A stretch of DNA of 64,000 bases, taken from NCBI RefSeq assembly GCF_037975245.1, contig NC_092575.1, positions 139,001-203,000 on the forward strand, written 5' to 3'. The translations under genes and the position numbers were made by a program. Source of the stretch: Apostichopus japonicus. Taxonomy: Eukaryota > Echinodermata > Holothuroidea > Aspidochirotida > Stichopodidae. Positions 10,257-64,000 of the stretch are shown piece by piece. How positions within the stretch are numbered: the first letter of the stretch is position 1; each line of letters opens with the position of its first letter. The notes under the pieces are model-generated. The model had not been told where the DNA came from and ran no database searches. It saw only the letters and a program-made list of their open reading frames with translations.

Positions 10257-10475
10257 CGTTTGCACATACCAAGTGACCGAAAATGTGTGGTTAACTTCTT
10301 TCACGTTAAATGTTAGTAAAATTAAGATGACATTTGCTTTATGCATAATTTTTGGTTTTTGCTTTACGTTCTTAGGTGACGAAGATCGCCCAAACTGTAC
10401 GTTGTAATGAAGCGTGTGATTGGTTGAGGAATTTTAGATCCATCGTAGGTTTGCTGTTCAACTTAGCCATTCAAT

Positions 10476-11635: not shown

Positions 11636-12510
11636 GTAAGAGAGTTATGACTAAGTAACTAAGTAACACTAAGTAACACGATATCTCAAGGTAAGAATCA
11701 TGTATACTTTTCGTACTTGACATGTATACGCCCCATATCGAGTAGACAAAGCGTATTGTTTTTGGTGGAAGACAGAGGTAATTGAAGTCACCAGAGGTCA
11801 AACGCTGAAAACTTTGTAAACACGATATCTCATGATAGCAAGAATGGAAGTATGAATAATATTTTATACTTGGCATGCGTATGCGTCATATTGAGCAGAA
11901 GACTCCGATTGCGTTTGGTGCGGGTCAAAGATCATCTGATGTCACCAGTGGTCAAATAATCAGTGTAAGCACTTTATCTCAAGATACGTAGGAAGCATGG
12001 ATACCTTTCATACTTACATGTGGATGCGTCATATTGTGAGGAAGAAGCCTGTAGTTGTTCGTGGAGGTCAAAAGTCTTATAAGGTCACTATCTGAGTAAA
12101 AAAAACTGGAAACCTTGTGAACAGGATATCTCCAGATAGGAGGCAAGAATACTTCTCACATTTATCTTGTGGATGTGTTATAATTAGTAAATAACTACGT
12201 TGTTTTTTAGTGGAGGCCAAAGGTCATCTGAGGTCACCAGTGGTCAAATTCTGAATACCCTTTATACATGATATCTCATGGTAGAAGCCACGGATATTTC
12301 TCATACATGGTATATGGATTTGCCCAATAAAAAACACCTGTTGTTGTTGGTGTAGGTCAAAGTTCGCTTGAGGTCACCAGAGGCAAAAACTCTGACAATC
12401 GTTAAACATGATATCTAAAGATAGAAATCATGGATACTTCTCATACTTGGTGTGTGCCTGTGTGGATCCATTGCATTGAGTAAAAGATCCCTATTATTTC
12501 TGGTGAAGGT
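11636..12510. repeat. Degenerate tandem/dispersed repeat in the PTB-gene intron
   Basis: About six diverged units of roughly 130-150 bp, each with GAGGTCACCAG(A/T)GGTCAAA, then ACGATATCTCA, a variable block (ATACTTnTCATACTTG) and GTCAAAGnTCAnCTGAGGTCACC. The same family, on the opposite strand, recurs at 52740-53220 and 54050-54600. It carries nuclear-receptor-like half-sites but appears to be a dispersed genomic repeat. Confidence 0.7.
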
Positions 12511-24550: not shown

Positions 24551-24562
24551 AGCTGACAAACC

Positions 24563-24592
24563 ATGCATGTACAAGTTTTCTGTGTGATGTAA
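24563..24592 (+). promoter_or_regulatory. uORF whose stop overlaps the main start codon
   Basis: After a good splice acceptor (TTTTACAG, ending 24552), a nine-codon frame (MHVQVFCVM) begins at 24563. It ends in TAA at 24590-24592, which overlaps the main ATG at 24592 as TAATG. If transcribed, it would force leaky scanning or termination-reinitiation to reach the PTB coding region. Confidence 0.5.
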
Positions 24593-26025
24593 TGGCAGCG
24601 CTAAAGATTGGTCGCAGGACACCAAAACAAGAGATGACATCTTCGAAGAGAGACAAAGACCCCATCTCCTCCCGGTCGAAGTGCCCAGTTTTTACCGTTC
24701 AATACCTTGGAAAGTTACCAGCACGAGGCGAGTATGGCCGAGAGTACATATCAGAGCCTGTTGAATGCTTGTTGAAATTAAAAGAGAAGCAACGGTTACC
24801 AAAAACAACTTTAACTGTTTCTGAAAAGGGATTTCATTTTTTGGATCAGAATGGCCCATTTGGAAAAGAGAAGCATGTTTTAATTCCACTCCATAACATT
24901 TGCTATGGCGTTGCCGACGAACAGTCACCGCGTGTGTTTGCTATCATAACCAGGTCAGACAGTAACTCCGCAAGTAGCCTGTTCGAATGTCATGCATTTC
25001 TTTGTGACAAAAGAAAAACATCTAGTGAAATAACTTATTGGCTATTGAGGACATTTTTACAAGTATTTGAAGAACTCCAAAAGAAAAGAAGACTTCGACA
25101 GGATAAGAAGCGACAAGAAAACGGAGGAAATAACGACGGCCGAGTTGCAGAATCTTCCAAGGATGCAAGAGGTTCCAAAGCTAGGTTGTCATTTGGACCC
25201 GAAAAACCATTTGAAACTGGATCTTACTCAGTCATTCTGGAAGGTAGCAAAGGACACGGTGCAGCCGTGGGTTTAACATTGGACAAGTCAAGGTCTCGTA
25301 ATTCCCATGTGACATCACGACAGAAATCCCATGGAAACGAGCAGCAGCGAAGAAATGACGAACGTGACTTAAACGCAAACTTTTACTCGAGATCTCCCCA
25401 AGATCCCTTGATTACCATCAATGCAGATGTCCACCCTCATCCTTCGACAGCTCAGCTAAAGCATAGACTACCTCACCACCAAGTGGTTCCACAAGTCAAG
25501 GGTGGTAGTCGTAGTACTTACATTTATTCAGGTGGTGTTCAGCCTCCTCCACACACGACGAATCATCAAGGTTCGAACCATCATAGACATCAAGTGGTCC
25601 CGAACTACGCCGCGCAACGAGCTCCATCCAGCGTTGGACGGTATACAAGGAACAATCCTCAATCCCAGAATGGATTTGTGGGAAGAGAAGGAAGATCGGT
25701 AGCTCAACCAAGTAGTCACGATGACTCGGATTTTTTATTTATTGAGTTATTGCAGGAAGAATTCACCGACGGTCGCCATCAAGACGGATTCTCAGTGAGA
25801 AGCGGTAGACGAGGAGAAGTAATTGGCCCGCCTAATCAGATGCTCCGTAGCGAGGATATTGAAAGACGAATCCACGAGTGGCTATCTGCAAGAGAAGAGC
25901 CCAGCGAGGATGATATTTCTGTTTTTGCAGAAGATGAAACTGTACATCATCCACCAGAGATATTACGACGTCAGTTCAGTGGAGGAGACACCGTTAGTGT
26001 AGCTTCAAGCGATTCGTATTTTTGA
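24592..26025 (+). CDS. PTB/PID-domain adaptor protein, FAM43-like (paralogue 2)
   Basis: Intronless 477-residue coding region. Residues ~33-165 form a PTB/PID domain: VFTVQYLGKLPARGEYG, LPKTTLTVSEKGFHFL, LIPLHNICYGVAD, RVFAIITR, FECHAFLCD and the terminal helix EITYWLLRTFLQVFEELQKK. The same landmarks occur in the gene at 10476 (YLG, ITYGVA, LCDK, ITYWxL, YEEL/FEEL), so they are paralogues ~13 kb apart in the same direction. Residues ~170-400 are low-complexity, basic and His/Gln/Ser-rich, probably disordered. The C-terminus is acidic, then ILRRQFSGGDTVSVASSDSY. The start follows a short uORF and a candidate splice acceptor at 24552, so a non-coding first exon is likely. FAM43/PID1-like assignment is by pattern only; its role as an NPxY-type adaptor is inferred. 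Confidence 0.85.
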   Translation: MAALKIGRRTPKQEMTSSKRDKDPISSRSKCPVFTVQYLGKLPARGEYGREYISEPVECLLKLKEKQRLPKTTLTVSEKGFHFLDQNGPFGKEKHVLIPLHNICYGVADEQSPRVFAIITRSDSNSASSLFECHAFLCDKRKTSSEITYWLLRTFLQVFEELQKKRRLRQDKKRQENGGNNDGRVAESSKDARGSKARLSFGPEKPFETGSYSVILEGSKGHGAAVGLTLDKSRSRNSHVTSRQKSHGNEQQRRNDERDLNANFYSRSPQDPLITINADVHPHPSTAQLKHRLPHHQVVPQVKGGSRSTYIYSGGVQPPPHTTNHQGSNHHRHQVVPNYAAQRAPSSVGRYTRNNPQSQNGFVGREGRSVAQPSSHDDSDFLFIELLQEEFTDGRHQDGFSVRSGRRGEVIGPPNQMLRSEDIERRIHEWLSAREEPSEDDISVFAEDETVHHPPEILRRQFSGGDTVSVASSDSYF

Positions 26026-30789: not shown

Positions 30790-33747
30790 CAGGAAGGGAG
30801 ATTACTGTTAAATTCGAAAATACCGGGAAATTCATTGTGGATTATTTGGGGGGGGGGGGGCTAGTTGACACCACGGTCTACTATTGTTGTCTCTTCCATA
30901 GTTAGGAGAGCGTGGTCGAATAGTATTATGTAAATATTGCTGAGTGATTACTTTAGCATCATATAATATTCGATTAAACACAGTGACAGATAATGTCAGT
31001 GTGTTTTCTTGTATGGCATTCAGGCTAAATCAAAACTAGGCCATAGTCAGTGACATTAAAAGAAGAGTCCTTGCTGGGGCACATTTTGCAATCGTTGGCA
31101 TGTTGTTATTCAACAATACGCAAACTGGAATAACTTGCCCAATAAATGGTGAACATACGCGTTACCCTGAAGTACAGTGAAGAACAGTATATGAGGACAT
31201 AACAACCTCCCCCCCCCCCCCTACATAAATCAGCGTTTAGGCAGGGTTTTTTCCTCAGAATTTAAAGAATGTTTTTTTGCTACAAGAGGAAACTCTACTC
31301 TACTTAAGAAGTTTTTAAGAACTAACTTGAGTGGGAAAGTGAATATCCAACAACATACAACAGAAGAAAATAGAGTGATATGACGTCATAGTAACTCAAA
31401 GGGCATATGATATTTGTCTGTAGGCGCACCAAGAGGGGTAAAGTTCAAGTGGCAAGTATTCCACCATATATATACCTAGACAGTATGTGATCATAAAGTA
31501 TGGCTTTATGATAGAACGTGCACTCAACACAGAAGAAGAAGCAAGTTTTGTTCTTTACAAACGTGGATCCGGTAAAGTTACTTCCATATCATTTACTTAT
31601 CTTATCATAAATGTGTGTTGTATCCTACTAACAAATCTCAAAAACATGTTGATACATTGACGTGATATTGATGGAGACCCGCAGATTAACAGGGAAAAAA
31701 CTAATCAGGAACGATCAGGATCAGGAAGACGAAGACGAACATTTGCCAAAGAGAAACCCAACTCAGTTACAGTGTAACCATATTCTGACCATGAAGTATA
31801 GTATAATTCATAGAGCATTACTAATTACGTGCAGCGTATTTCAAAGTAAGCCTGATAGGGTACTTCGCCAAGACTGCATACTCGTCTATGAATATTCACA
31901 AAGTGTTTGTGACTCTGAGGGACATTTCATAACACTTATGGGAACACCTATGTAAACTAAAGAATGCATTGAATAGAACAGAGGTAAGAAGAACTATGGG
32001 GTTTGGAATCATAGCCCGCATTGACCAAAGTCACAATTGAATTATTCTGGTAAATGCGTTGACCACGTTTAGAGTATGCACAAAATCATATCCCAAATTA
32101 CATGGAGGCGGAAAAGTAAGTAACATATGTTCGATTACATGCCTTAGGGTAACTTTCTTGTTACGTTCTATAGTGTTTTATGCTCACTACAATTCATAGG
32201 ACTCCTTTATACACTCGTGCTCTTATCACAGAAGCCTTAGGCAAGTAGTAAAGAACACTTATATATAAAACAATATATAGGATAGATGTTTTCGTATATA
32301 CAAAATAATATCGACCTGGAAGGCAGTTATTGTACGACGCTAAGCAGTCACTTGTGAATGTGGAAGAAGTCGAATGCTTTATTACTCATACACTTCATAT
32401 ATTATACACGTCGGCAAGCTATCCAAATTACAGTGTTAGCTCATTTTGGACTTTTGGAAGACAAATCTGGTTGAAAAACTGTGGATTTCGTGTAGATCAT
32501 GATTTTAAACCTCACCAAAGTTCTGGTCGGCCATGGCCAGGGTCGAGCACACCACCAGATGACATATTTCAATGCTTCTTAGGCCACCGCTTTATTCTCT
32601 CGACGGACCGTAACAGTGTTATAAATTCATTATGTAGTTTTATCACTAACCATAAAGAAATATATATAAGCCCAGGTACGGTGTAATGAAACCCAATAAC
32701 TATCTTAATGCATGTGAACCGTTAGTAAACCATGTACCATGTAAACCATACCATGTAAATTAGTGTCATACATAATGTAAGACTCGTTGTAGTACTCAAA
32801 ACTTCTGCATTGATTCATGAAGCGCTATAGTTTTTACCAAAGACGAGAAGACAAAATACTGCAAGAACAACCTTTAAGTGCAGTCCATCTTCCTCCTTGT
32901 CAAGCTGAATACGAACAGATGTTTTGCAGTTGTTCCATTTCCGCTCTGACATACCTTCATTCCAAAGACAATTTATTTACATCTCACTGAGTGGTTAATA
33001 ACGTTGCTCAGGGCTTGCATGGGAGAGTTATACAGAATAAGTAACGAAATTATTAACATTCAATAGCATACGATACTTCGAATAATTTGAAAATTATACT
33101 GTTAAATCGAAAACAAACAATGCCCTTTTTGCATGAACCATATTTGAGCCAATAATTGCGACATTGTAAGCATTTCCATATACATAGTCCACATAAGATC
33201 AACCAAACATTTACACAAGGGATTTGGTTTTCCATATGTCAGGGAGCGATGAAATCTTCCCGTTTCAATATAAAATTATCTGCAATATATGACAAGGACA
33301 AGTGAGTATGATGTTGCCGATATCATATTTATCCATCGCCGTTTATTCAAATATTAAATCCTCTTTCTTAATGAAGTTATTTGATTTGTGGGATTTTACA
33401 ATTATCTTTTGAAGTGTGCAACTTATATTTTAGCTTTAGAATTATGCAAGCATCCTAAAACAGTGTTTGATCACGGAAGTTCAAAGTCTGATCTTACAGT
33501 TCGATTTTATGTTTTCTCATTTCATTTTTCGATTAAATTAGCTCTCAGTCAAAATGAGCTGAATTGTCATCTTCTCGTGGCAAACCATGGTGACACAGAG
33601 CGCATGCGTAGAAACACGACAACTCGCAACTGCTTCTTATGAGAACTGTGAGAGTGAACAACTCACAGGAGAGGAAGGACATCGTAGAAGCATCATCAGT
33701 ACGCTTGCCTCCAAATAGAAGAATAGATAAGACTGGGAGTAGATACA
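30790..33747. other. Intergenic / 5' flank of the SLC45-like gene
   Basis: No supported coding region. Open frames at 31662-31955 (97 aa) and 32330-32686 (118 aa) have mixed composition but no domain I recognise and no clear splice sites. A C-run lies at 31208-31220. The last ~100 bp is the probable 5' UTR of the transporter. Confidence 0.45.
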
Positions 33748-35293
33748 ATGGCGTTTATAAGAGGAGCTTTGTCAAGAGCGCGAGAAGTATTTGGGAAATC
33801 TGAGGATCGTACTCCATTTGTGAAGTCAGATGAACTAGAGTCTGATGAACTGAGCAGAAATAGTGAAGTTAACCAACAAGAATCCAACCGACAGCCTAAG
33901 CCGTGGCTCCAACTAGCTCGATTAAGTGGAACTGTTTGTGGCATCGAATTCTGTTATGCTGCCGAAACGGCTTTTGTCAGTCCTATACTTTTGAGGATCG
34001 GGATTCCGCAACGATTTATGACAATGGTATGGTGTCTGAGTCCTTTGATGGGATTTCTATGGATGCCGATTTTAGGATCTGCAAGTGATAGATGTGGTTC
34101 TCGTCTAGGAAGACGTCGACCTTTCATCATCCTTCTCTCAGTGGGAATCATAATTGGTTTGATATTAGTGCCAAACGGCTATCGTCTAGGGGGTGCCACG
34201 TGTGGACTGGAAGTAGTGAATTCAACCAACAGTACATCTTGCATAGAGAATATAACTCCGGAACCACTTGACGTGTTGTACGGCTTCTCGGGATTCGAGT
34301 CTGGTATGGAATCGTTATATGACAACGAAACTACCACCATTTTACCCATACAGACAAGTGAGATGCCGCTGCCGGCATGCCGATTGATACCCACTGTTGC
34401 TGGACATACTTGTGGTATTATCTTTACCGTTATTGGCATCATGCTTCTTGATTTTAACTGTGATGCTTGTCAATCTCCAGCCCGGGCATATTTAATTGAC
34501 GTTACACAACCAGAAGATCATGTCAGGGGGTTGTCCATGTTCAGTTTTATGGCCGGTCTTGGTGGGTCATTGGGCTATATGATCGGAGGCATTCCATGGC
34601 ATGAGTCAACCGGAAGTGACATAGTAGGAGCACAAATTCGATTTGTATTTGGCTTAGTTTTGATCATCTTTGTAATTGCCCTAGTTTTAACTGTTACGGC
34701 CGAAAAAGAAAAAACCCTTCAAGAGATCTTCCCAGAGGAGAGGAAGAAAAAGAAAAAAAATGTTGAAAATGATGAGGAAATGGAACTGGGTATTTTGCAG
34801 CCAAAAAAAAGTTACGGAACTGGAGAAGAAAAGATTAAAGATAAGCAAGATATTGAAGAGGCAAGTGTGGTCAACATAAGTGAAAACGAAACTCCACAAG
34901 AGATACGCGAGAATGGCTTTGGTGAAGAGAAGATGTTGGTTGAAGGCACCATGGGTAATGAGATGACGGACACTGATCGGAGAGAAGAATCAACTGATGC
35001 CGAGAATGTTAGTATGACGACATACCTGCTGTCAATCATTCGAATGCCATGGTCCGTTAGAATTCTTTGTTGTACACATCTCCTCGGCTGGATGTCCCTT
35101 TTGTGTTACTCCCTGTATTTCACCGACTTCGTTGGTCAAGCTGTGTACGGAGGGGATCCTTATGCAGAACCTGGGACTCCTGAGAGATATGCATACGCCA
35201 AAGGAGTACGCATGGGATCTTACGCAATGGGTCTCTACTCCTTCACATGTGCTGTTTGTTCATTTACTTTAGAACGGATGATGGCAAAAGTTG
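33748..35293 (+). CDS. SLC45-like: SLC45-family sugar/H+ transporter, exon 1
   Basis: First of three coding exons of a 664-residue, 12-helix major-facilitator protein. Diagnostic features: TM1 GIEFCYAAETAFVSPILL (residues ~70-88), TM2 WCLSPLMGFLWMPILGS, and the SDRCGSRLGRRRPFI loop (RxGRRRP signature of SLC45 and plant sucrose transporters). A lumenal/extracellular loop follows with several N-glycosylation sequons (NSTNST, NIT, NET). TM4 ends in DACQSPARAYLID, then TM5-TM6. A long charged loop of ~100 residues (Lys- and Glu-rich) lies between TM6 and TM7, then TM7-TM8. The start context ACAATGG is good. The exon ends AAAGTTG|GTAAGT (phase 1). Family members are H+-coupled sugar carriers or melanosomal/vesicular transporters; substrate and membrane are not determined here. 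Confidence 0.92.
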
Positions 35294-36699
35294 GTAAGTC
35301 GAATAATGTCTTGTTTCCTTTACTTGCCAATATCCCATCTTAAAATGCTAAGCTGTGGATAAAAGTAACCTAGGTAACGAAACATCACAAATTCACACAT
35401 GTTCCTAAGCATTCCCTCAACAAAGTTAACTTCTTGAACTGTTTGATAGTATGCCCATAATTTACTTTCATGATTTCTGTTTGGAATTATCTGCGTTAAC
35501 TATGATTGTCCCCGAAAACATTCCAATGAGAGTCAGTTTTCCCCGTGAACTGAATTTGTTTAGAGTAACTATTACTGCAGATGGAATACTTAAGCATCAA
35601 AGAGATATGCAGGGGTTCTTTATAACGTAGAGTTACTATAACAATAAACTCATATTTAATTATCAGAACTCGCTAGTCTTGTCAGTACCCCTCACCCCCC
35701 CCCCTCCACCCCTCGCACCCTCCTATGAAAATCAAGCCACGTGATTGCTTTGCATTGTTCGTTGAGACTGAGTTGATCGATACATTATCTATTTATTTGT
35801 GTATCAGTTTTAAGGATATTATTATAGATCGCAAATTAATTCCCGTAGTTTGCTAAGAATTCTTCTTTCTTTAGAATTGCTGGATCGCCACACGCCTTAC
35901 ATTTCGAAACAAGCGTTATGTAGGTTTTGTCAAGCAATTGAAGGATGGCAAATTTCGATTTTTACAGAGCAATGACGCAAGCTTGAATTATTTTCACCTG
36001 CTCTTTACCGACTTCACTGGTTGCAGTCATACCACTTCAGGCTACTGGCGACAATTACAATTTTAAAGTGACTGCGTGGATTGCAAGTCGAAATCATTGC
36101 AAGTGTATAGCTAGTAGTTTCACAGCTAAACCAAAGACCGATAATAAGCAGTCTATACATTTAGGCTAAACCATTAAAATATGCAATATTAATACGTTAA
36201 ACAGGTCTTGAATTTAAAGGCTTTAAAACAGCGAACAAGTTCAAACCTCCGAAAGAAAGTATTAAAGATTCGTTATGAAGTTATATTTAACTCTGTTTTA
36301 AAGGAACTTTAATGTTGTCGTTTCAAGCTTAGTAAAGAGCTTTTTATGTGACCGTTAAAGAACTGATGTTTTATCCTGATATCAGTAGGTGTATCAAGGT
36401 TACCAGTGATTCGCTCACGGCCAATGCAACTCAAGTAGTTGTAAATAAGAACCTAATTTCGATTAATCTCGACGATTCTCTTGAACGTATGTCGCAAGAA
36501 AATCCAATCAGATACGAGGGAGAATGCACAAATGAATCGCAGCGCACATATTTGATAAACGTGGTTAGCCAAGGCCGTTTTAGGGTAGCTTGAGATTTTC
36601 TCTTCGCTGAAGGATATAAAGCCTATATTTTTAGTTTTTGTATAATGATCCATGCTTCATACATTCTAGCAATATGCAATATACTCGTTCAGACAAGGT

Positions 36700-39824: not shown

Positions 39825-40211
39825 GTAAGATATTTCCTATATGACTATAACTATTACTATTCTTTAATTGTGGTAACCTGTTCTATATGTCAACATTCTC
39901 GACCACGACATGACAGTGATGATCAATTCCAACCACATCCGTATAATTCTAGCGAAACAAAAATGTATTAATATGCTGTGTTATAAGGTAAAGTACCAAG
40001 CCAACAATAGATATCCTTATAAAGCAACTATGAATCGACTCACCTACATATCTACCGCTAATTGTAATAATGTACTCGGCGGATCAGTTATGACATTGAG
40101 ACACACGCACAAACAACCTATTGTTATTATTATTCATTCATTCATTTTGATTTACAATAAGTAAAACGATCTAGCGTTATGATGAAAAGTCCTTCTTCTT
40201 TATTCTTTCAG

Positions 40212-40484
40212 TTTGCTAAACCAAAGGAAGGCTACCAAGACTTTACCGAAGGAGAATCATCCACGGAACATAACAGACCAAAACACGGCAACCAGATTAG
40301 GGGTTTAGGTACCGATGTTGCCGTGGTCCAGAGCATGGTTTTTGTCGCCCAATTTCTCTTGTCTTTATGTATGGGATCTATAGTGCAGGCAGTTGGCAGC
40401 ACTGTTGCAGTGGTGGTCTTAGCCTGCATCCTTAGCTTTTTCGGTTCCCTCATGGCCACGCAGGTACTTTATGCTGGTCTTTAA
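40212..40484 (+). CDS. SLC45-like: SLC45-family transporter, exon 3 (terminal)
   Basis: Acceptor TTATTCTTTCAG|TTTGCT at 40211/40212 joins exon 2 in phase 0. It encodes a hydrophilic loop (KPKEGYQDFTEGES), then RGLGTDVAVVQSMVFVAQF (TM11) and GSTVAVVVLACILSFFGSLM (TM12). It stops after TQVLYAGL at 40482-40484. A GTACTT inside this end could be a donor, but the family tail (SFFG..MAT then a short hydrophobic end) fits reading through. A canonical poly(A) signal lies 13 bp after the stop. Confidence 0.88.
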   Translation, partial: FAKPKEGYQDFTEGESSTEHNRPKHGNQIRGLGTDVAVVQSMVFVAQFLLSLCMGSIVQAVGSTVAVVVLACILSFFGSLMATQVLYAGL

Positions 40485-45379: not shown

Positions 45380-46609
45380 TGAACACCTAGATGGTACCCA
45401 TGTACGTGGGATAGAATGTATAATCCCATTCCTTGTAAAAGTAAAGCTTGGACAATTAAATTTAGCAATAAAAGCAATATACGACATAGGCCTGCCATAC
45501 GACAATAACTGCTACAATTTATATTATAGACAGACAGAGTTGCGGCAATATTTGATGTAAACGGCGCTCGTTACCCACAGTTAGATAAAAGCACTCAATA
45601 AAAGAATCATATGGCAATTGCGAGATTTTAAATATGAAATACTAACGTCATACTAACGCGACCGAAGTAACTAAAAGGACGTTAAAATGCGTTCTGTCTT
45701 TATAAGAACGTTTGGTCAAAATGATAATCTCTCACTGGTGAATATTTGATTATCTCTCACTGGTGAATATTTCTCTTAATCTCTTGGCTTCAGCTGGTGG
45801 GTCGACGTTTCTGGACAACGCTAAGTGACGTCATCAGCATTCTTCTTCAAATATTCCTTAAACAAAAGCAACAAAGTATAAAAAAGGGAAAAATGGTGAA
45901 AGAAGAAACAATTAAAGCCGTTTAATAAGCTATGATAATAATTAATAATAATTATGAACAAGCTTAATGGCAGCGACCATGACCTTCCTTGTTTGAAGTC
46001 ATCCATAGCGGGGACTGGTTCACTGGTTAGTTGGAATGCTATTGTACAGGAACTCCTATTTCATTGCACGCAGGTTACCTTCACGAGTCATAGAAAAACA
46101 CTGAAGCACTTCACCTGGCATGATGCTGGAAACTTTTTGTAGTGTGAAAAAAGCATAACTTCATATAGAAACAAGACGCGTCCTTGAACTAAGTATTTAA
46201 CTTATAGAATTTGAGTAACTTATATAATTGGAGTAACCACGCACGAGCTGTGTCATCTCGACAACCTTGGAACTACAATCACAATTGTAAATGACTGCAC
46301 GACAAGGGGAAACTTCGTGTTCACTAACAAGGATTATACGGTCAGCATACACATATATTAGGTAGTTGGTACCTGTAAGACTAGTGTAATATATTCCCAC
46401 ATCGTCATTGATATCTCAAGAAAGTTCTGTATTTACTAATATCAGAGGATTTTAAGGAGGAAACTCACGTAATATTGTCAGATTCATTTAATTGCCCGGA
46501 TGTAAGCAATGTTCAGCGTCGTTGATATTTAACCACAACGGTAACTATAGACTGATACTATTATGTGAAGTGTCACTAACTTGCTAATCACCAAGTCAAC
46601 ATCCTTAAA
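45380..46609. other. 5' flank of GPCR gene 1
   Basis: No other coding region supported. A ~30-bp direct duplication (TCTCTCACTGGTGAATATTT) lies at 45729-45772. Confidence 0.4.
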
Positions 46610-47719
46610 ATGGAACACCTTCAGGGAATCGCCAACGACACTCTTTACGTACAGTTTGATGTCCCTGTCACGTTGCAAGTTGTCCAATTAATTCTAGGAC
46701 TGGCCATAGTGATTGTGAACGTATTTGTTATGGTTGCCTACGGTCAAGACAGAGACGTACGCAGTGTCCCTGCAAATGTCTTTATTTTACATCTCTCTAT
46801 TTCAGACTTTTTGACAGGTCTTGTCCTCATCGTTCGGTTTGCATGGATCGTTCAGGATCCTCTCGTGTCTATACATATGTCCACACCGTGTCTTGTAATA
46901 GGTGCAGCTCACTTAGCTTCCCTGATAATGTCTGTTTTGTTCGTCATTCTCATCAGCTGGGATCGTTATTTAATGGTTTCAAATCCATTTAAGTATCGCC
47001 AATACACAGTTTCTCGGGCTATGCGTATCGCCATCTGTAGCTGGAGTTTTATGCTACTGTATATACTTTTAATCGTATTTGGGTTTCCAGGCATTCATCA
47101 GCTTATTTTCCACGCTCCTTTGGAGTCAACTTTTTGCATAGAGACTCAAATTCCACGAGAGGCTGTGTTTCTGTCCCTCTGGTTGGATTTTGTAGTACCA
47201 TTTTTCCTTCTCTTGTACTTTAATGGAGGTGTGAATTATAAACTTCGAAAAGCAACTTTAGAGAAATATAAAAAACAAAGACTGGAACTAGATGGTGTTG
47301 ACAACCCAAGTGTGTCTACGAGAGACCAGGACTCCTGCACTGAAGTTGTCGAACAGACCGGATATCCGGAAAACATTCGAGAAACACAAATGTCTGTTAT
47401 TGATAAAGGCAAAATTTCGAACAATTCTAACCAGAATCCACAGGAAGAGAGAATTAAACAGTCAGCTAAAAGAGAACTGAGAAAAGTTTTAAGAACAGCA
47501 GGGATACTTCGTACTTTTATTGCTGTCTTTTGTCTTAATTGGTTACCATTTTATATTGTCTTAATTGTTAATATATCCAAGCCAGTCCCTGCCAACTTAA
47601 TCACCGTTGCTTCCCTCAATGTATCACTCAACTCGTTTGTTAATCCTTTCCTCTATGCTTTCATGAGTAGGAAAATTCGACGACGGCTTCATTTATTAAT
47701 TAAGTGCAGGACAAGATAA
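46610..47719 (+). CDS. Class A GPCR, amine-receptor-like (paralogue 1)
   Basis: Intronless 369-residue seven-helix receptor. N-glycosylation sequon at N9; TM1 ~23-44; TM2 ~55-78 with LSISD; C94 (3.25) and C176 as the probable disulfide; TM3 ending in the DRY motif (118-120); TM4 ~138-160; TM5 ~185-208. The third intracellular loop is long and polar (~210-295). TM6 has NWLPFY (W311, P313) and TM7 NPFLY (345-349). The overall plan (long ICL3, short basic tail after SRKIRRR) is like biogenic-amine, histamine or muscarinic receptors. But position 3.32 is His101, not the Asp that binds amines, so the ligand is unknown. It acts at the plasma membrane through G proteins. A close paralogue lies 2.8 kb away on the opposite strand. 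Confidence 0.9.
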   Translation: MEHLQGIANDTLYVQFDVPVTLQVVQLILGLAIVIVNVFVMVAYGQDRDVRSVPANVFILHLSISDFLTGLVLIVRFAWIVQDPLVSIHMSTPCLVIGAAHLASLIMSVLFVILISWDRYLMVSNPFKYRQYTVSRAMRIAICSWSFMLLYILLIVFGFPGIHQLIFHAPLESTFCIETQIPREAVFLSLWLDFVVPFFLLLYFNGGVNYKLRKATLEKYKKQRLELDGVDNPSVSTRDQDSCTEVVEQTGYPENIRETQMSVIDKGKISNNSNQNPQEERIKQSAKRELRKVLRTAGILRTFIAVFCLNWLPFYIVLIVNISKPVPANLITVASLNVSLNSFVNPFLYAFMSRKIRRRLHLLIKCRTR

Positions 47720-50530: not shown

Positions 50531-51727
50531 TTACCTTCTTTTACATTTACCCATAAGAACAAATCGGCGTCGGAACTTCCGACTCATATATGCATACAGA
50601 AATGGGTTTACGAAAGAGTTAAAGGACACGTTCAATGAAGCTACAAGTTTCGTCCAGTCCGGTAGGGGATTAAACATATCGATAATGATAATCAAGTACA
50701 AAGGTAGCCAACCTACAACAAACACAGCCACAAACAACCAAAGAAGTCTCGCTGTTCGGCACATTTTTCTGTATTCCTTTTTTGTTGATTGATATATACG
50801 TTCTTGGGAAGGGTTCCCAAATCCCTTCGTCCGATCACTTTGCCTGCTTCGTGGCGCCATTTTATCCAACTGTGATATTCCACCAGAAGACTGGATTTCT
50901 CTGCTTTCATCAATCACATTCGCTGTCTTCAGTTGATCTACTATGGCGCTTGCTAAGCCCGGATCATTTACACTTTTTACATTCTCTGAGAGAGATAAAT
51001 CAGTTTCCCTGGAGGGTTCACTGAGATTCGATTTGGAATATTTTGCGGATTTTTTGGCGGTTAGTTGTCCATGGAACTTTTCCTCTGTTGCCTTGTAAAG
51101 CTTCACTATAACACCTCCATTAAGAAAAAATAAAATGAGGAATGGAATTACGAAGTCGACCCAAACAAATATTAAAAAGAGAGGCCTCGGTAGATGAGTC
51201 TCCAAGCAAAACATTCCTCGATCTGCAACTGGAAACAGGTTCTCATAAAACAAAGGGAAAACAAATATGAGAAAACTGAGATAAACAGCGAGTATTAACC
51301 AAGCCATGACGGATATCAGGACGGCGCGACCGACGGTGTGCTGACGATAAGCAAATGGCTTTGCGACCATTTGCCATCTGTCGTAGCTGATCAGGATAAC
51401 TAACATCACCGACATCACCAAGGTTCCATAGTGAAGTCCTCCAAGGAAAATACAGGCTACACTTTTAGTGACTGGCACTTCAGCACCCATGACGGCCCAG
51501 ACGAATCGGCCAACCAAGTCAAGGCCAGACAGTAGATCCGAAACAGCTAAATTTAAAATGAAGATGTTTGCTGGTACGATTCGAATTGCTCGATCTTGGA
51601 CAAAGGCAACCATAACAATAATGTTAACGAGAATTATCGCCAACCCGATAACCAGATAACTGACTTGTAAGGGAACCGGTACACTAACAAAAAACTCGTT
51701 CGTAAAATTTCCCGATTGGAACTCCAT
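50531..51727 (-). CDS. Class A GPCR, amine-receptor-like (paralogue 2)
   Basis: Intronless 398-residue receptor. The frame is open 28 codons further upstream. I chose the inner ATG at 51727 because it aligns with the start of the paralogue at 46610 (MEF.../MEH... followed by an N-glycosylation site and TM1). TM2 has LAVSD; C92 (3.25); TM3 ends DRW (116-118) instead of DRY. ICL3 is long and Ser/Lys-rich. TM6 has GWLPLY and TM7 NSFVNPFLYAYMSRKFRRR. The tail is very short and ends KCKRR. Position 3.32 is His99, as in the paralogue, so the aminergic Asp is absent in both. The genes are tail-to-tail, implying an inverted tandem duplication. Ligand unknown. Confidence 0.9.
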   Translation of the reverse strand: MEFQSGNFTNEFFVSVPVPLQVSYLVIGLAIILVNIIVMVAFVQDRAIRIVPANIFILNLAVSDLLSGLDLVGRFVWAVMGAEVPVTKSVACIFLGGLHYGTLVMSVMLVILISYDRWQMVAKPFAYRQHTVGRAVLISVMAWLILAVYLSFLIFVFPLFYENLFPVADRGMFCLETHLPRPLFLIFVWVDFVIPFLILFFLNGGVIVKLYKATEEKFHGQLTAKKSAKYSKSNLSEPSRETDLSLSENVKSVNDPGLASAIVDQLKTANVIDESREIQSSGGISQLDKMAPRSRQSDRTKGFGNPSQERIYQSTKKEYRKMCRTARLLWLFVAVFVVGWLPLYLIIIIDMFNPLPDWTKLVASLNVSFNSFVNPFLYAYMSRKFRRRFVLMGKCKRR

Positions 51728-52735
51728 TATTTGACGGGTTTGCTTGTTAATTATTTTTATCTTGTCTTTGTGTTGCCCGACAGAAGTAACATATCTCGTT
51801 CTCGAGTACAACGTTGATAACGTACATTATCAGCAATAGCAATCTATATGATGCTCCTTCTGTACAGTTTTAGAAACCTGTTGAGTACCTCTACAGCAAT
51901 TAGTCCGCTTCTAGGCCTAATGGTAGGCTGCTCCGGGCAATTGTGTTAGCTGAATCTTTACTTAGGTCACTAATACCAATTTAATTATGCATTGATAAAC
52001 GGATGACGTCATCGCACGCTAGAATACACACAACGCAGAAATATATTCTGGAAATATTTGTGAACTGTAAATCGGAGTTTGATACATGTTTAAGTTAAAA
52101 ATCGGATGCAAAAGGGAAACAATACATTCCAACTGTTAGGTCAACTAATCTTACTCACAAACAGGTTACTATAGTAAAGACCGATTACTCCATAAACTAT
52201 GTAATATATGTATATAATATAGGTATGCGTCATATTTCCTAGGCGTATCTCAGCAATTGTATTTACACTCGGGTACATTGTGCATTGAAAAGTTACTATT
52301 AGGAATTGATTGTCGGCCATGTTTTCGAATACAAGCCTAGATTTCACAACCACAAAGCCAGAATGCTTTGTGATTCCCGCCATATAATTTGCTCAAAATT
52401 CATCGTAACTAGCTGACTAATGTAGAGCAAGTGAATTTGTTCAAGAGTCAAGTGAGAAGCAGAAACCAGAGGAAAACCCTTCCCAGCAGTTACTCGCAAT
52501 TAAATACATGACATATGCAGGACAAGAGTAGTTTGCATGCTAACCCTGACTGAAGCTCATACTGCAGATGGACAGCAGCATCAATCTAAACAGAGTCAGT
52601 GCTTACATGGTTCGATGACCGGGAATCATGTGACATAATACCACAATGATGAAAGAAAGACCGGGGCGGGTGGGGGGTGGGGGCAATGTTTGTAGTTGGT
52701 TATTTATTTTGCATGCTCACTCTAACAGCAAAGAG
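51728..52735. other. 5' flank of GPCR gene 2, no further gene seen
   Basis: No coding region supported; a short G-rich tract at 52666-52683. Confidence 0.4.
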
Positions 52736-56571: not shown

Positions 56572-58017
56572 TAGGGATGCACCGGATCCAAATTTTTGGA
56601 TCCGGCCGGAACCGGATTTTGCCGGATAGTACATGAAATCCGGCCGGATTTTATCCGGCCGGAACCGGATTTTTTCATTACACAAAAGAAAATCATTAAT
56701 AAGAAGTAGAAGTATGAAACAAGGAGCAAATCTTAGGTGAGGTATACGCATATTATAAAGAAGGTGAAATTAAGACCCCATTTATGAGATTAAATATGAC
56801 TTGAAGTGGTGTAATCTACATTCTTTAATAAAATAACTACAATATAATTGTTGACAAGCTTGATACAGTATGTAAATTTGTTTGCTGGAAAAATACTGCA
56901 TACTACCTATGAAGTTTGTTTTAAAACGGGAAGCTACATTTCACAAATCTCATACTTTAAACTGAATAAAAAGATTATTTAATTGTTGTAGTAACACTAC
57001 TATCAGGATTTAAAATTGTCTAGTATTATTCATTATTTGGTAACAAATTTTTACACTGCAATATTATCTGTAAAAAAAAAAGCATTGCATCTTTCCAGAA
57101 GTGGAAGAAAATTCTTATCTATCTTTTATCTATCCTTTAAAATGGAATTAAATGTTCATTAGAACACTTAATGATTTAGGTTTTTCATGAACTTTAAGGA
57201 ACTTTCATGGTGACAAGAGATATATCTTTCTGTGAGAAAATTATATACTGTTTTTTCTGTGACTGGCACCCATTTGGTGGAAACTCTTATAGTCCATTGC
57301 TTCATCTATTTATAAAAGTACCAAGATTACAATTTGCATATTGCCATGATCACACACAATGAGTAACAATTGACAGCTTTCTAGACAGGAAATGGACTGT
57401 AGTGGTCCACAAAAAGATCCATTGTTTTGGCTTCTTAAGGTCCTAATGCACATGTTTGGATTTTGGACATTTCATTTCATGCAAGTGTTTCTCTCTGACC
57501 ATATAAGAGATTGTTTCACACATAAAAATTCAGAGAAAACATGAATGCCAACAATAATGGGAAAGTAAAGATTCAATGGAACAGTATTTTGACTGATAAG
57601 TGGTCTATTTTAACTGCACAATGTTAAACTGATGAAGGCTGCAAACTAATGATTTCACTGCAAACTGTATTTGTTGTATATAGCTTCATATTATTACAGT
57701 AGTTGTATTATTTTGGTTGATCTTTAGAAACAGTGGGTCAGACCATTGAGAAAATTAAATTAAACATGTTAAACCTAATTTTTCCTTACCTGTACTCTGA
57801 ATGTTTTTACTAATTTTTGGAAATAGTTTACATTGATTTAAGTTAATACCAACACCTTTTTAAGGAATAATTCAGGCCAGATTTTGAAAAAGATCCGAGC
57901 AGATTTTGAAAAAGATCCGGCCAGATTTTGAAAAATATCCGGCCGGAACCGGAACCGGATAATTTCTCACTATCCTGCCGGATAGTCCGACCGGACCGGA
58001 TATCTGGTGCATCCCTA
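56572..58017. mobile_element. Non-autonomous hAT element with intact ends and target duplication
   Basis: A 1446-bp element with perfect 12-bp terminal inverted repeats, TAGGGATGCACC and GGTGCATCCCTA. It is flanked by the identical 8-bp duplication ATCTCAAA (56564-56571 and 58018-58025). Both subterminal regions are dense in CCGGCCGGAACCGGAT-type motifs (left ~56583-56670, right ~57890-58000), including a GATCCGGCCAGATTTTGAAA direct repeat. Such subterminal clusters are typical transposase-binding sites of hAT elements. The interior is AT-rich and encodes nothing longer than ~66 codons, so it would need a transposase in trans. Confidence 0.9.
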
Positions 58018-58459
58018 ATCTCAAAAACATAATAACATTTTAGATTTCAAGGTCTGAGGGACCCTCCAAGTCATCAGGTACATGTGTCTACTTACAGAAT
58101 AGAATCATAAGTAGAATATGACTGACCATACAGGTACAACAAAACTGCTAGACTGACTGCATTGAACTGTGTAACCTTAGGATGGTGCAGTAAATTGCTA
58201 TAAATTTTAAAATAATTTTATGGGGAAAGACCCCCCAGAACCCCCCCCCCTTATTGATGGGAGCTTCAATGATCCCATGGCTTTACCCCTCTTATATAAT
58301 ATATTTCATGTGCATCTGGCCCTAACATATACATTCAGGTCACTACCTAACTTAGTCAGGGAATTTTGGGATTTATTATAATTTATAAGCCCAATCTTGC
58401 ATTTATAGAGTTATTTCTATGGACATAAATTATAGTTTAAATATGCATCACAATGCACC

Positions 58460-58976
58460 ATACATGCATACATGTCTCCACATCAGCATAGACAACTACT
58501 ACAGGAAAGCATACATGTCTCCACATCAGCATAGACAACTACTACAGGAAAGCATACATGTCTCCACATCAGCATAGACAACTACTACAGGAAAGCATAC
58601 ATGTCTCCACATCACCATAGACAACTACTACAGGAAAGCATACATATCTCCACATCAGCATAGACAACTACTACAGAAAGCATACATGTCTCCACATCAG
58701 AATAGACAACTACTACAGGAAAGCATACATGTCTCCACATCAGAATAGACAACTACTACAGGAAAGCATCCATGTCTCCACATCAGCATAGACAACTACT
58801 ATAGGAAAGCATACATGTCTCCACATCAGCATAGACAACTACTACAGAAAGCATACATGTCTCCACATCAGAATAGACAACTACTACAGGAAAGCATACA
58901 TGTCTCCACATCAGCATAGACAACTACTACAGAAGGCATACATGTCTCCACATCAGCATAGACAACTACTACAGTG
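58460..58976. repeat. 43-bp minisatellite, ~12 copies, at the RhoGAP 3' end
   Basis: Unit CATACATGTCTCCACATCAG then CATAGACAACTACTACAGGA and AAG. It ends ~38 bp downstream of the RhoGAP stop codon, so it probably lies in the 3' UTR or immediate flank. Confidence 0.93.
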
Positions 58977-59013
58977 CATATTGGTTGCAACTTAGAAATA
59001 CAAGAGAGCTATC

Positions 59014-59245
59014 TTAGACAGTAACCCGGTTATCAGAGTCGATTAATTGTAAGGCTTTCTCAGAGAAATGCTCCAAGTAATAGTGAAGTACACCAACTTG
59101 GGCAAGGGCTCCTGCCATGCTATAGAAACCAGACGTATCACTCGGATCTTGATCAGAATAGCCAGCAGGACTCAGTAAGGTTGGGCCAAACACAGTTGAA
59201 ATATTATGAAGGGACATCTTATTCTGTCCTTCATTGCTAGCAATT
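59014..59245 (-). CDS. BCR/ABR-like: BCR/ABR-like RhoGAP, terminal exon
   Basis: Last exon of a minus-strand Rho GTPase-activating protein gene whose 5' part lies beyond the right edge. Acceptor TTTTTGTTGCAG|AATTGC at 59246/59245; stop TAA at 59016-59014. It encodes IASNEGQNKMSLHNISTVFG with PTLLSP, the conserved C-terminal core of the RhoGAP domain including the invariant Asn. Then follow an acidic insert, LAQVGVLHYYLEHF and the end DSDNRVTV. The KMSLHN..TVFGPTLL block and the AQVxVLxYYL segment near the C-terminus fit BCR/ABR better than chimaerin-type RhoGAPs. BCR and ABR end in PDZ ligands; VTV here could be a class II ligand (inference). The domain accelerates GTP hydrolysis by Rac/Cdc42-type GTPases at membranes. 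Confidence 0.88.
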
Positions 59246-59510
59246 CTGCAACAAAAATACAAATATGTCAGTGGTGAATTCACACATAGTTTCACTGGCA
59301 ACCACACATTGGAAATTGCCATTGAATTATACAGCAATATTCCAATTGATAGTAGCATCTGATAAATGGCTCAAACCAGGAGAGCAGTAACTTATGTCTG
59401 AGACTAGGTCTTTATTTCACAATAAAATTCTTAACATTTCATTTTTTCAGGAAAAAAGTTCAGTGTATCATTCTGCTTCAGAAGAAATAATGTAATATGA
59501 AGGAACTTAC

Positions 59511-59616
59511 TTCTTGAGGTGGTTAAAAAGGTAAATGATTGTTGTTCGATTTGGTTCTGGCATCGATTTTAATATAGACATCATGTACTTCCGTTTGCTC
59601 TCAGCCTCGGACAGAG
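59511..59616 (-). CDS. BCR/ABR-like: BCR/ABR-like RhoGAP, penultimate exon
   Basis: 106-bp exon. Acceptor GACATCATTCAG|CTCTGT; donor CTCAAGAA|GTAAGT. Entered in phase 1 (A|CT = Thr), it encodes LSEAESKRKYMMSILKSMPE then PNRTTIIYLFNHLKK. It leaves in phase 2, and AA|A makes Lys before IASNEGQ. It matches the RhoGAP segment with LP(E/D)xN...L..HL(K/R). Introns on its two sides are 265 bp (59246-59510) and 1705 bp (59617-61321). Confidence 0.88.
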
Positions 59617-59739
59617 CTGAATGATGTCAAACAGAAACAAGCAACAATTACAGTTAGTACTAACCAAATCAAAGACATGCAATATCGTATGTTCATTCAT
59701 ACTTAGTAAAGATTCCTAAATCCTATTGGTCCATTCAGG

Positions 59740-60050
59740 TCAGCTGACCGTGGTTAATCCTGTGAGTAACGCACGGTAAAATTACGGGGCATCACTTTAA
59801 TAAATCTTGGTTATATGTAACCAAAAATGTTTTGTTTTATGATCTTTCCCCCACACAAATGGTAGTGTATGAATGAACAGGGTTAATCAACCGTCTAGCG
59901 TGCGTTACTCACATGATTAATGCACTCCGGGTGTTAATGCTTTCGCTGGATGCACTCGGGCTCCGCTCCGCCCTCATGCATCGCTTGCATTATCCCCCGA
60001 TTGTGCATTAATCCTGTGAGTAACGCACGCTAGACCGTTGATTAACCCCT
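59740..60050. repeat. Foldback inverted repeat in RhoGAP intron
   Basis: Arms 59881-59925 and 60003-60047 are reverse complements over 45 bp with two mismatches (GCGTGCGTTACTCAC / GTGAGTAACGCACGC). A GC-rich 77-bp spacer between them contains CTCGGGCTCCGCTCCGCCCT. A third partial copy (GGTTAATCCTGTGAGTAACG) lies at ~59752. Probably a small foldback or MITE-type insertion. It could form a strong hairpin in the pre-mRNA. Confidence 0.75.
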
Positions 60051-60124
60051 TAATAAGAAAAGGTAGATTTACAAGCCAGTACACTAACAAACTCTCTAAG
60101 CTTTGAAAAAAACTGGTGTGATGT

Positions 60125-60680
60125 GAATATCATGCATTCCAAATTCCTGCATGGTGTGATGTGCATATCAGTGGAACCAAACATATGCAGGCTGCATCCC
60201 TGCATGGTGTGATGTGTAGTGGAACCGAACATATGCAGGTTGCATCCCTGCATGATGTGATGCGAATATTAGTGGAACCCAACATATGCAGGCTACATCC
60301 CTGAATGGTGTAATGTGAATATCAGTGAAACCGAACATATGCAGGCTGCATCCCTGCATGATGTGATGTGTAGTGGAACCAAACATATGCAGGCTACATC
60401 CCTGCATGATGTGATGTGAATATCAGTGAAACCGAACATATGCAGGCTGCATCCCTGCATGATGTGATGTGATGTGAATATCAGTGAAACCAAACATATG
60501 CAGGCTACATTCCTGCATGACATGATGTGAATATCAGTGAAACCAAACATATGCAGGCTACATCCCTCATGATGTGATGTGAATATCAGTGAAACCAAAC
60601 ATATGCAGGCTGCATCCCTGCATGATGTGATGTAAATATCAGTGAAACCGAACATATGCAGGTTGCATCCCCCCATATAT
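60125..60680. repeat. ~54-bp minisatellite in RhoGAP intron
   Basis: About ten units with AACCAAACATATGCAGGCTG, CATCCCTGCATGATGTGATG and TGAATATCAGTGA; some units lack the last block. Open minus-strand frames (CSLHMFGFTDIHIT) are artefacts. Confidence 0.93.
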
Positions 60681-60779
60681 AAGAATATCAGTTGTTTATG
60701 TCATAAGTCCAACAGTCAACCCTTCATACCCTGTCATTAAAACATGATTATGTTTACAAATAATTACTGACTTAATCCA

Positions 60780-61268
60780 ATGTTCAGCACATTCTATAGA
60801 GCTACTTTTAAAAACAATCTACTTCTTATGTTCACAAATAAAATACTCTAGTCAGCACATTCTATAGAGCTACTTTTAAAAACAATCTACTTCTTATGTT
60901 CACAAATAAAATACTCCAGTCAGCACATGATATAGAGCTACTTTTAAAAACAATCTACTTCTTATGTTCACAAATAAAATACTCTAGTCAGCACATTCTA
61001 TAGAGCTACTTTTCATAACAATCTACTTCTTATGTTCACAAATAAAATACTCTAGTCAGCACATGATATAGAGCTACTTTTAAAAACAATCTACTTCTTA
61101 TGTTCACAAATAAAGTACTACAGTCAGCACATTCTATAGAGCTACTTTTCATAACAATCTACTTCTTATGTTCACAAATAAAATACTCTAGTCAGCACAT
61201 GATATAGAGCTACTTTTAAAAACAATCTACTTCTTATGTTCACAAATAAAATACTACAGTCAGCACTT
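60780..61268. repeat. 68-bp minisatellite in RhoGAP intron
   Basis: About seven units with CAGCACATTCTATAGAGCTA, CTTTTAAAAACAATCTACTT and CTTATGTTCACAAATAAAAT. CACATTCTATAG and CACATGATATAG variants largely alternate. It ends ~55 bp from an exon. Confidence 0.93.
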
Positions 61269-61321
61269 ACAAGCTAGTTTCAAAATCATGACAATTATAA
61301 TGAGAACTGCTAAATACATAC

Positions 61322-61456
61322 TAAGTCCACTGGTAAGCTTCTCATATAGAGTATGGGTAAACAAAGGCTCTGGAAGTTCCCTCATATACAACTTGAGTAG
61401 GCCAGCAACAGCATGGATGTCAAAATTACCAACCAGTTTGGTAACACTTTTGTGAC
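61322..61456 (-). CDS. BCR/ABR-like: BCR/ABR-like RhoGAP, antepenultimate exon
   Basis: 135-bp exon. Acceptor TTCTCTTTGTAG|GTCACA at 61457/61456; donor GGACTTA|GTATGT at 61322. It encodes HKSVTKLVGNFDIHAVAG, then LLKLYMRELPEPLFTH and TLYEKLTSGL. The (I/V)AG.LKLY.RELPEPL block is a RhoGAP hallmark. It begins with the last two bases of a codon, so the preceding exon must end in phase 1. The predicted preceding peptide is found, with the right phase, in the satellite at 62021-64000. The arginine-finger segment lies outside the window. Confidence 0.88.
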
Positions 61457-61569
61457 CTACAAAGAGAAATGATATTATGTAAAACCAAAAACACACTAAA
61501 CAGTATGCATCCTTTAGACCTTTACCAAGTACATTTAAAGCAATAAAGTTCACAAAAGGATCATATGTA

Positions 61570-62030
61570 TTCTGCAATACCAAGTACACACACATGACTA
61601 TATATGTGTCTTGCTATACCAAGTACATACAAACGATTATATGTGTCTTGCTATACCAATTACACACAAAGGATTATATGTATTCTGCTATACCAAGTAC
61701 CCACAAAGGATTATATGTATTCTGCTATACCAAGTACACGCAAAGTATTATATGTATTCTGCAATACCAATTACACACAAAGGATCATATGTATTCTGCT
61801 ATACCAAGTACACACACATGACTATATATGTGTCTTGCTATACCAAGTACATACAAACGATTATGTGTCTTGCTATACCAATTACACACAAAGGATTATA
61901 TGTATTCTGCTATACCAAGTACCCACAAAGGATTATATGTATTCTGCTATACCAAGTACACACAAAGTATCATATGTATTCTGCTATACCAAGTACACAC
62001 AAAGTTCATATCTACTATGCTATCCCTCAC
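61570..62030. repeat. ~37-bp minisatellite in RhoGAP intron
   Basis: About twelve units with TATGTATTCTGCTATACCAA and GTACACACAAAGGAT. A longer block (from ACACACATGACTATATATGT) is repeated at ~61588 and ~61810, giving a second-level period of ~222 bp. It abuts the 52-bp array. Confidence 0.9.
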
Positions 62031-64000
62031 CTGTTTAAAAAGCTTTTCTGAGGTAGTGTATGTCTACATTGGGATCCCTCATCCGGTTTCCCAATTTCAA
62101 ATGCTTTCTAAGGTAGTGTATAACTACTATGCTATCCCTCATCCGGGTTCAAATGCTTTCCTAAGGTAGTATATATATCTACTCTATCCCTCACCTGTTT
62201 CAAATGCTTTCCTAAAGGTAGTATATATCTACTATGCTATCCCTCACCTGTTTCAAATGATTTCCTAAGGTAGTATATATCTACTATGCTATCCCTCACC
62301 TGTTTCAAATGATTTCCTAAGGTAGTATATATCTACTATGCTATCTCTCACCTGTTTCTCATGATTTCCTAAGGTAGTATATATCTACTATGCTATCCCT
62401 CACCTGTTTCACATGATTTCCTAAGGTAGTATATATCTACTATGCTATCCCTCATCCGGTTTCAAATGCTTTCCTAAGGTAGTATATATCTACTATGCTA
62501 TCCCTCATCCGGTTTCAAATGCTTTCCTAAGATAGTATATATCTACTATGCTATCCCTCACCTGTTTCAAATGATTTCCTAAGGTAGTATATATCTACTA
62601 TGCTATCCCTCATCCGGTTTCAAATGCTTTCCTAAGGTAGTATATATCTACTATGCTATCCCTCACCTGTTTCACATGATTTCCTAAGGTAGTATATATC
62701 TACTATGCTATCCCTCACCTGTTTCACATGCTTTCCTAAGGTAGTATATATCTACTATGCTATCCCTCACCTGTTTCTCATGATTTCCTAAGGTAGTATA
62801 TATCTACTATGCTATCCCTCACCTGTTTCACATGATTTCCTAAGGTAGTATATATCTACTATGCTATCCCTCATCCGGTTTCAAATGCTTTCCTAAGGTA
62901 GTATATATCTACTATGCTATCCCTCATCCGGTTTCAAATGCTTTCCTAAGATAGTATATATCTACTATGCTATCCCTCACCTGTTTCAAATGATTTCCTA
63001 AGGTAGTATATATCTACTATGCTATCCCTCATCCGGTTTCAAATGCTTTCCTAAGGTAGTATATATCTACTATGCTATCCCTCACCTGTTTCACATGATT
63101 TCCTAAGGTAGTATATATCTACAATGCTATCCCTCATCCTGTTTCACATGATTTCCTAAGGTAGTATATATCTACTATGCTATCCCTCACCTGTTTCACA
63201 TGATTTCCTAAGGTAGTATATATCTACTATGCTATCCCTCACCTGTTTCACATGATTTCCTAAGGTAGTATATATCTACTATGCTATCCCTCACCTGTTT
63301 CACATGATTTCCTAAGGTAGTATATATCTACTATGCTATCCCTCACCTATTTCACATGATTTCCTAAGGTAGTATATATCTACAATGCTATCCCTCACCT
63401 GTTTCAAATGCTTTCCTAAGGTAGTATATATCTACTATGCTATCCCTCACCTGTTTAAAAAGCTTTTCTGAGGTAGTGTATGTCTACATTGGGATCCCTC
63501 ATCCGGTTTCCCAATTTCAAATGCTTTCTAAGGTAGTGTATAACTACTATGCTATCCCTCATCCGGGTTCAAATGCTTTCCTAAGGTAGTATATATATCT
63601 ACTCTATCCCTCACCTGTTTCAAATGCTTTCCTAAAGGTAGTATATATCTACTATGCTATCCCTCACCTGTTTCAAATGATTTCCTAAGGTAGTATATAT
63701 CTACTATGCTATCCCTCACCTGTTTCAAATGATTTCCTAAGGTAGTATATATCTACTATGCTATCTCTCACCTGTTTCTCATGATTTCCTAAGGTAGTAT
63801 ATATCTACTATGCTATCCCTCACCTGTTTCACATGATTTCCTAAGGTAGTATATATCTACTATGCTATCCCTCATCCGGTTTCAAATGCTTTCCTAAGGT
63901 AGTATATATCTACTATGCTATCCCTCATCCGGTTTCAAATGCTTTCCTAAGATAGTATATATCTACTATGCTATCCCTCACCTGTTTCAAATGATTTCCT
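62021..64000 (-). repeat. 52-bp satellite carrying a RhoGAP exon end plus splice donor
   Basis: About 38 units run off the window edge. On the minus strand a standard unit reads GATATATACTACCTTAGG, then AAAGCATTTGAAACAG, then GTGAGGGATAGCATAGTA: 34 bp encoding DIYYLRKAFET plus one base, then 18 bp starting with a donor site. Joined to the exon at 61456 (ACA G|GT CAC) it gives AFETGHKSVTK in the right phase, filling the family gap before that exon. Many copies keep GTGAGG. A 53-bp variant (ACCGGATGAGG) has lost it, and others carry changes such as TGA in frame. The block at 62021 recurs identically at 63441 (offset 1420 bp), and shorter blocks repeat at ~419 bp. No copy here has its own acceptor, so the functional exon should lie beyond 64000. 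Confidence 0.85.

Follow-up and report, generated by a model that had tools for sequence, protein, structure and literature searches.

A tandem array in the 3′ part of an ABR/BCR-type RhoGAP gene of Apostichopus japonicus very probably originated, as far as sequence comparison can tell, from the end of a RhoGAP exon together with its 5′ splice site. It is of the type called 'mirages' in amphioxus, described in the available text of the globin study as tandem duplications across an exon-intron boundary in the Adh3 and globin genes (PMC3087553). The array is a minisatellite of 52-53-bp units, lies at positions 62025 to 64000 on the minus strand of the analysed window (a stretch of 64,000 nucleotides) and passes the window edge. 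Three features of mirages are present. Tandem minisatellite-like repeats lie within the gene, upstream of the exon starting at 61456 and on the same strand; the unit spans an exon-intron boundary of the ABR gene, judged against orthologue proteins; and many units (25 of 38 unit ends) carry AG/GT signals. We consider the array probably a passenger of the intron that is spliced out with it and has no dedicated function.

The identity of the gene as ABR/BCR follows from its RhoGAP domain, its best matches to BCR/ABR proteins and the order of its exons on one strand, the C-terminal exons being in the window. The exon (G)HKSVTKLV...LTSGL occupies 61322 to 61456 on the minus strand, with its first base at 61456 and its presumed end set by a GTATGT donor at 61321. 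The next RhoGAP exon (LSEAESKRKYMMSILKSMPEPNRTTIIYLFNHLKK) lies at about 59510 to 59617 (minus; tblastn, ends approximate), and the last exon with the stop codon (IASNEGQNKMSLHN...NRVTV-stop) at 59014 to 59247 (minus; start approximate). In tblastn, residues 958-1004 of protein P0030 aligned at 61457-61317, residues 1004-1038 at 59614-59510 and residues 1038-1114 at 59247-59017. Both the 61456 exon and the last exon contain a Pfam RhoGAP match. A first protein search gave 29 proteins with vertebrate BCR on top, and in a second, among the best 120 of 779, the ABR-type proteins P0030 and P0031 ranked first (87 and 83% identity over 91% of the query), followed by echinoderm ABR-like proteins. The ABR gene looks alive, because its downstream exons are 83 to 87% identical to these holothurian-like transcripts. 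ABR residues further upstream had no credible match within the window in tblastn with four queries; the matches were scattered, weak or of low complexity, and the strongest (E 2e-4) falls in an acidic repeat. The parent exon is presumably beyond 64000.

No A. japonicus ABR protein was found among the 29 proteins or the best 120 of 779, in searches that covered two separate length ranges. This absence may have no meaning, or may reflect a rare, broken or out-of-length-range transcript. Unlike ABR, a receptor in the same window has a listed A. japonicus protein. It is one of two rhodopsin-type receptors on opposite strands, at 46580-47719 (+) and 50531-51826 (-). The latter matches A. japonicus P0151 (332 residues) without a mismatch over two blocks, of 189 and 126 residues, which assigns the window to A. 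japonicus or a species very close to it; P0151 is named putative histamine H4 receptor-like, and its model is without a middle stretch present in the window frame.

Most array units encode DIYYLRK[A/S]..ET, which in holothurian and other echinoderm ABR-type RhoGAP proteins is the segment leading directly into the residues of the 61456 exon. The orthologues P0030 and P0031 read GSIADINRLK(K/R)AFET-G-H(R/K)SVTKLV without interruption, and at the junction P0030 has GSIADINRLKKAFET-G where the unit has DIYYLRKAFET-G. The window thus supplies DIYYLRKAFET from the array and (G)HKSVTKLV from 61456 in matching codon phase. Compared with DINRLKKAFET of the orthologue, 8 of 11 residues of the unit peptide are identical. 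Across 12 aligned sequences this stretch has an invariant D, L and F, and the unit peptide keeps all three; the unit has D at a nearly invariant G and R at a nearly invariant K. The Pfam RhoGAP score of the exon was 42.8 bits by itself and 48.8, 49.5 and 48.6 bits with three versions of the unit peptide added, and the start of the match moved from profile position 47 to 32, 31 and 30. By tblastn, the array was the only place at the gene that matched the residues just before residue 958 of P0030. The initial annotation had taken the peptide for the BCR/ABR RhoGAP segment before HKSVTKLV, which the two orthologues and the Pfam gain bear out. Its claim that the codon phase fits the exon start at 61456 holds in the orthologue comparison, and the expected gene position of the array was recovered by tblastn of P0030. 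The check that it had proposed, comparing unit translations with BCR/ABR RhoGAP domains, gave the 8/11 identity and a gain of about 6 to 7 bits.

We scored the units against a 15-residue orthologue peptide and took as background 124,008 windows from the sequence around the array, together with 15 sequences of 64 kb generated by a first-order Markov model. The best units scored 44, compared with at most 23 outside the array and 32 in the Markov sequences, so the likeness of the unit to the RhoGAP exon end is not due to chance. When an in-phase GT was required, the best background scores were 20 outside the array and 21 in the Markov sequences. Units with other residues scored lower, down to 11 in frame-shifted ones. 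The exact unit pattern had 0 copies in the prokaryote and 0 in the viral contig collections.

The leading DSIV of the unit, four of the 15 target residues, contributes 7 of the score of 44, and it may be derived from the intron. The secure exon part is thus 34 nt, in agreement with the initial annotation. We leave open a 46-nt exon part in which DSIV is read as GSIA. Just 1.0% of 4-codon windows (1,250 of 123,976) score equally well, but D occupies the position of the nearly invariant G, and the identical 12 nt come after the final donor, where the array has ended. These 12 nt also resemble the unit of the abutting 37-bp array, with shuffle P values of 0.004 and 0.016 under strict scoring and 0.052 and 0.072 under loose scoring. 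That likeness is weak as evidence, since an array at 58466 scores higher against the unit (26 vs 23).

A tandem repeat call (TRF) placed the array at 62095-64000 with period 52 and 36.3 copies, and when the minus strand is cut at the donor, 38 unit ends result between 64000 and 62025. Unit lengths are mostly 52 or 53 bp, the exceptions being two 60-bp units and one unit cut at the window edge. The array ends in a divergent unit (DPNVDIHYLRKAF-stop-T) with a GT donor at 62025 to 62076 (minus). Past this last donor, a tail at 62007 to 62024 (minus) holds the first 17 bases of a unit (GATAGCATAGTAGATAT) and then meets the 37-bp minisatellite at 61546 to 62004 (minus), which abuts in the same intron and weakly resembles the start of the 52-bp unit. 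The 60-bp units (62077-62136 and 63497-63556) carry ATTGGGA, and the divergent units that follow them (62025-62076 and 63445-63496) carry TCCCAAT. The two motifs form a short inverted pair around GATGAGG and may be the mark of a template-switch mutation.

A higher-order repeat of 1420 bp is superimposed on the units: when the sequence is compared with itself at that offset, 574 of 576 bases agree. Each block contains one 60-bp unit and the adjoining divergent unit, whose second-block copy is at 63445-63496. The duplication, which we call recent, is suggestive of allele length instability, one haplotype being seen. The two near-identical blocks could also be one block written twice, in which case the copy number would partly be an assembly product. 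This we regard as rather unlikely. The near identity at offset 1420 speaks for it, and one amphioxus mirage was reported as aberrantly assembled in a draft (in the available text of PMC3087553), but the units within one block differ from each other. An array of some 27 units therefore exists regardless.

The copies have decayed to different degrees. The 25 donors that keep GT read CAG/GTGAGG (22), CAG/GTGAGA (2) or TAG/GTGAGG (1). The other 13 ends are without GT and read GGATGAGG, with tails AACCGGATGAGG in ten, ACCCGGATGAGG in two and AACAGGATGAGG in one; the change looks like a single inserted base that would have spread via exchange between copies. In 19 of the 25 GT-type units K is followed by TCA (S), TTT (F) is replaced by TGT (C) in 10 and by TGA (stop) in 3, and GAA (E) has become TAA (stop) in 2. 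A single whole unit, at 63393 to 63444 (minus), has both in-frame DIYYLRKAFET and an intact CAG/GTGAGG donor. In a peptide scan, eight other units had DIYYLRKAFET without GT, and six had DIYYLRKSFET with GT. With lost GTs, stops and substitutions in its copies, the array is overall losing its coding character, which is expected of intronic repeats. The initial annotation had described a 34-bp motif followed by GTGAGG in each unit; the motif is as described, but the missing GTs and the many decayed copies limit the rest of that statement.

Splicing at a later donor would read T-G-E-G-stop or T-G-E-R-stop, and in all 300 of 300 donor pairs of the window three residues are added before the stop (GEG-stop or GER-stop). 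Full-length protein thus requires the donor closest to the upstream acceptor. The initial annotation had expected other donors to add 52-53-bp steps and shift the frame. Gaps between neighbouring donors do shift it in 21 of 24 cases (three 105-bp gaps keep it), but this shift is secondary, since the stop is met first. An intact exon end further down the array was rejected: any donor is followed by an immediate stop (300/300 pairs), and in the terminal divergent unit a stop replaces the conserved E.

In the origin that we propose, a short segment across the 3′ end of the RhoGAP exon and its 5′ splice site would first have been duplicated in tandem, and the copies would then have been amplified and partly homogenised through unequal exchange or slippage. 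Unit likeness, phase and position favour the view of the initial annotation that an authentic 5′ splice site was amplified, but only 25 of the 38 ends are still donors. The array lies on the coding (minus) strand in the place of the intron between the 61456 exon and the preceding exon, with the parent exon probably at its far (5′) end, beyond 64000. The productive donor would be the parent exon's own, the one closest to the upstream acceptor, and the array would leave with the intron. Use of an inner donor would truncate the protein inside RhoGAP. Because inner donors add a stop and cut RhoGAP, the first donor must account for most of the splicing, and leaky use of the others should yield premature-stop transcripts open to nonsense-mediated decay. 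In the 11-codon stretch, the divergent unit differs from the consensus at six places, four of them silent, and as many silent changes arise under random placement with P of 0.010, 0.017 and 0.026 for three transition rates. Six changes are few, and they hint that the two unit types may have been taken from a living coding exon on separate occasions.

It is also conceivable, if unlikely, that splicing employs several of the repeated donors, and that the array sets the amount of productive ABR mRNA via premature stop and decay or via U1 snRNP holding along the intron; array copy number would then be expected to vary. The 25 strong donor matches within less than 2 kb and the early stop after every later donor (300/300) are consistent with such regulation, as is the human IFI6 gene, where downstream repeat units are reported to act as donors (PMC4526556, available text). 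Against it, the amphioxus repeats are reported not to disturb splicing (available text of PMC3087553 and PMC3902484), and the loss of GT at 13 of 38 unit ends gives no sign of a need to keep donors. Less likely again is a length-variable splicing rheostat, with dozens of near-equal donors competing with the productive first donor. If it were true, array length would set the share of ABR transcripts with a premature stop, and Rho-family signalling would be tuned between individuals, or between cells if the array is somatically unstable. An origin of the array in an ABR paralogue or pseudogene elsewhere, or a RhoGAP likeness due to chance, is highly improbable: the parent exon is outside the window and the unit differs at two nearly invariant residues, but gene, place, strand and phase are all right and the score is far above the window and Markov controls.

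The surroundings of the proposed passenger array are rich in repeats. The 3′ part of the ABR gene (58000-64000) contains five tandem arrays with units of 43, 53, 68, 37 and 52 bp. Tandem arrays, hand-listed from repeat calls, cover about 66% of these positions, so array birth is common at the ABR locus. For the A. japonicus genome, of which PMC10344927 describes a chromosome assembly, 47.33% repeats are reported in the available text of that paper. When 21 arrays were compared by blastn with the array-masked window, most matches bordered the arrays themselves; a few, belonging to the arrays at 9744 and 54049, lay elsewhere. Two further reading frames of the window, at 10467-11639 (+) and 24520-26025 (+), are intact and encode a PID_2 phosphotyrosine-interaction domain. 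A major facilitator superfamily transporter exon lies at 33727-35343 (+), and a frame at 40161-40484 might be the end of that transporter.

Tandem repeats carrying splice donors are known from human. Turri, Cuin and Porter in 1995 reportedly described a minisatellite with multiple splice donor sites in human 6-16/IFI6, and its unit is said to be 12 bp. The sea cucumber array resembles it in that tandem repeats beside an exon each offer a splice donor, and differs in its unit of 52-53 bp and in the stop met on reading past a donor. According to the available text of PMC4526556, downstream repeat units of IFI6 are used as donors, giving protein isoforms. Since these repeat-borne donors are used, silence of the array donors is not to be assumed.

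A second comparison is the Rogers model of intron gain via tandem duplication of AGGT-containing segments, with 24-bp repeats in fission yeast (PMC4974935, available text). Tandem copies with AG/GT at a fixed unit position are common to both (PMC4974935). In our case, the donor of an existing intron has seemingly been copied, and no new intron is indicated. The available parts of PMC3045353, PMC3549977 and PMC12783039 contain no comparable case, and among the titles and abstracts of the open-licence literature matches listed we recognised no echinoderm case, without claiming its absence from print.

The closest counterparts are the amphioxus mirages in Adh3, BflGb6, BflGb9 and TnC, which as far as described are likewise minisatellite-like and boundary-spanning, often with a splice signal. 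In the available text, AG/GT is present in many, not all, units, the mirages apparently leave regular splicing undisturbed, and they are termed possibly general in cephalochordates (PMC3087553); TnC likewise has a mirage and PGBD5 similar, imperfect repeats (PMC3902484). Normal splicing is thus reported for amphioxus, whereas the sea cucumber array is known from genomic sequence, the parent-exon junction being outside the window. The present array differs in phylum and in its 38 unit ends, compared with 6 and 3 repeat units in the two BflGb6 haplotypes described (PMC3087553). This kind of array is already known from amphioxus mirages and human IFI6, and here it is found in a different animal group. 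The array extends the mirage phenomenon to an echinoderm, and its copies far outnumber those of the amphioxus globin examples. The array may mislead gene prediction at the ABR locus. It also offers a natural test of how the spliceosome selects one 5′ splice site where dozens, almost alike in sequence, are spaced at intervals of about 52 bp, a test in which every wrong donor choice would leave a readable signature.
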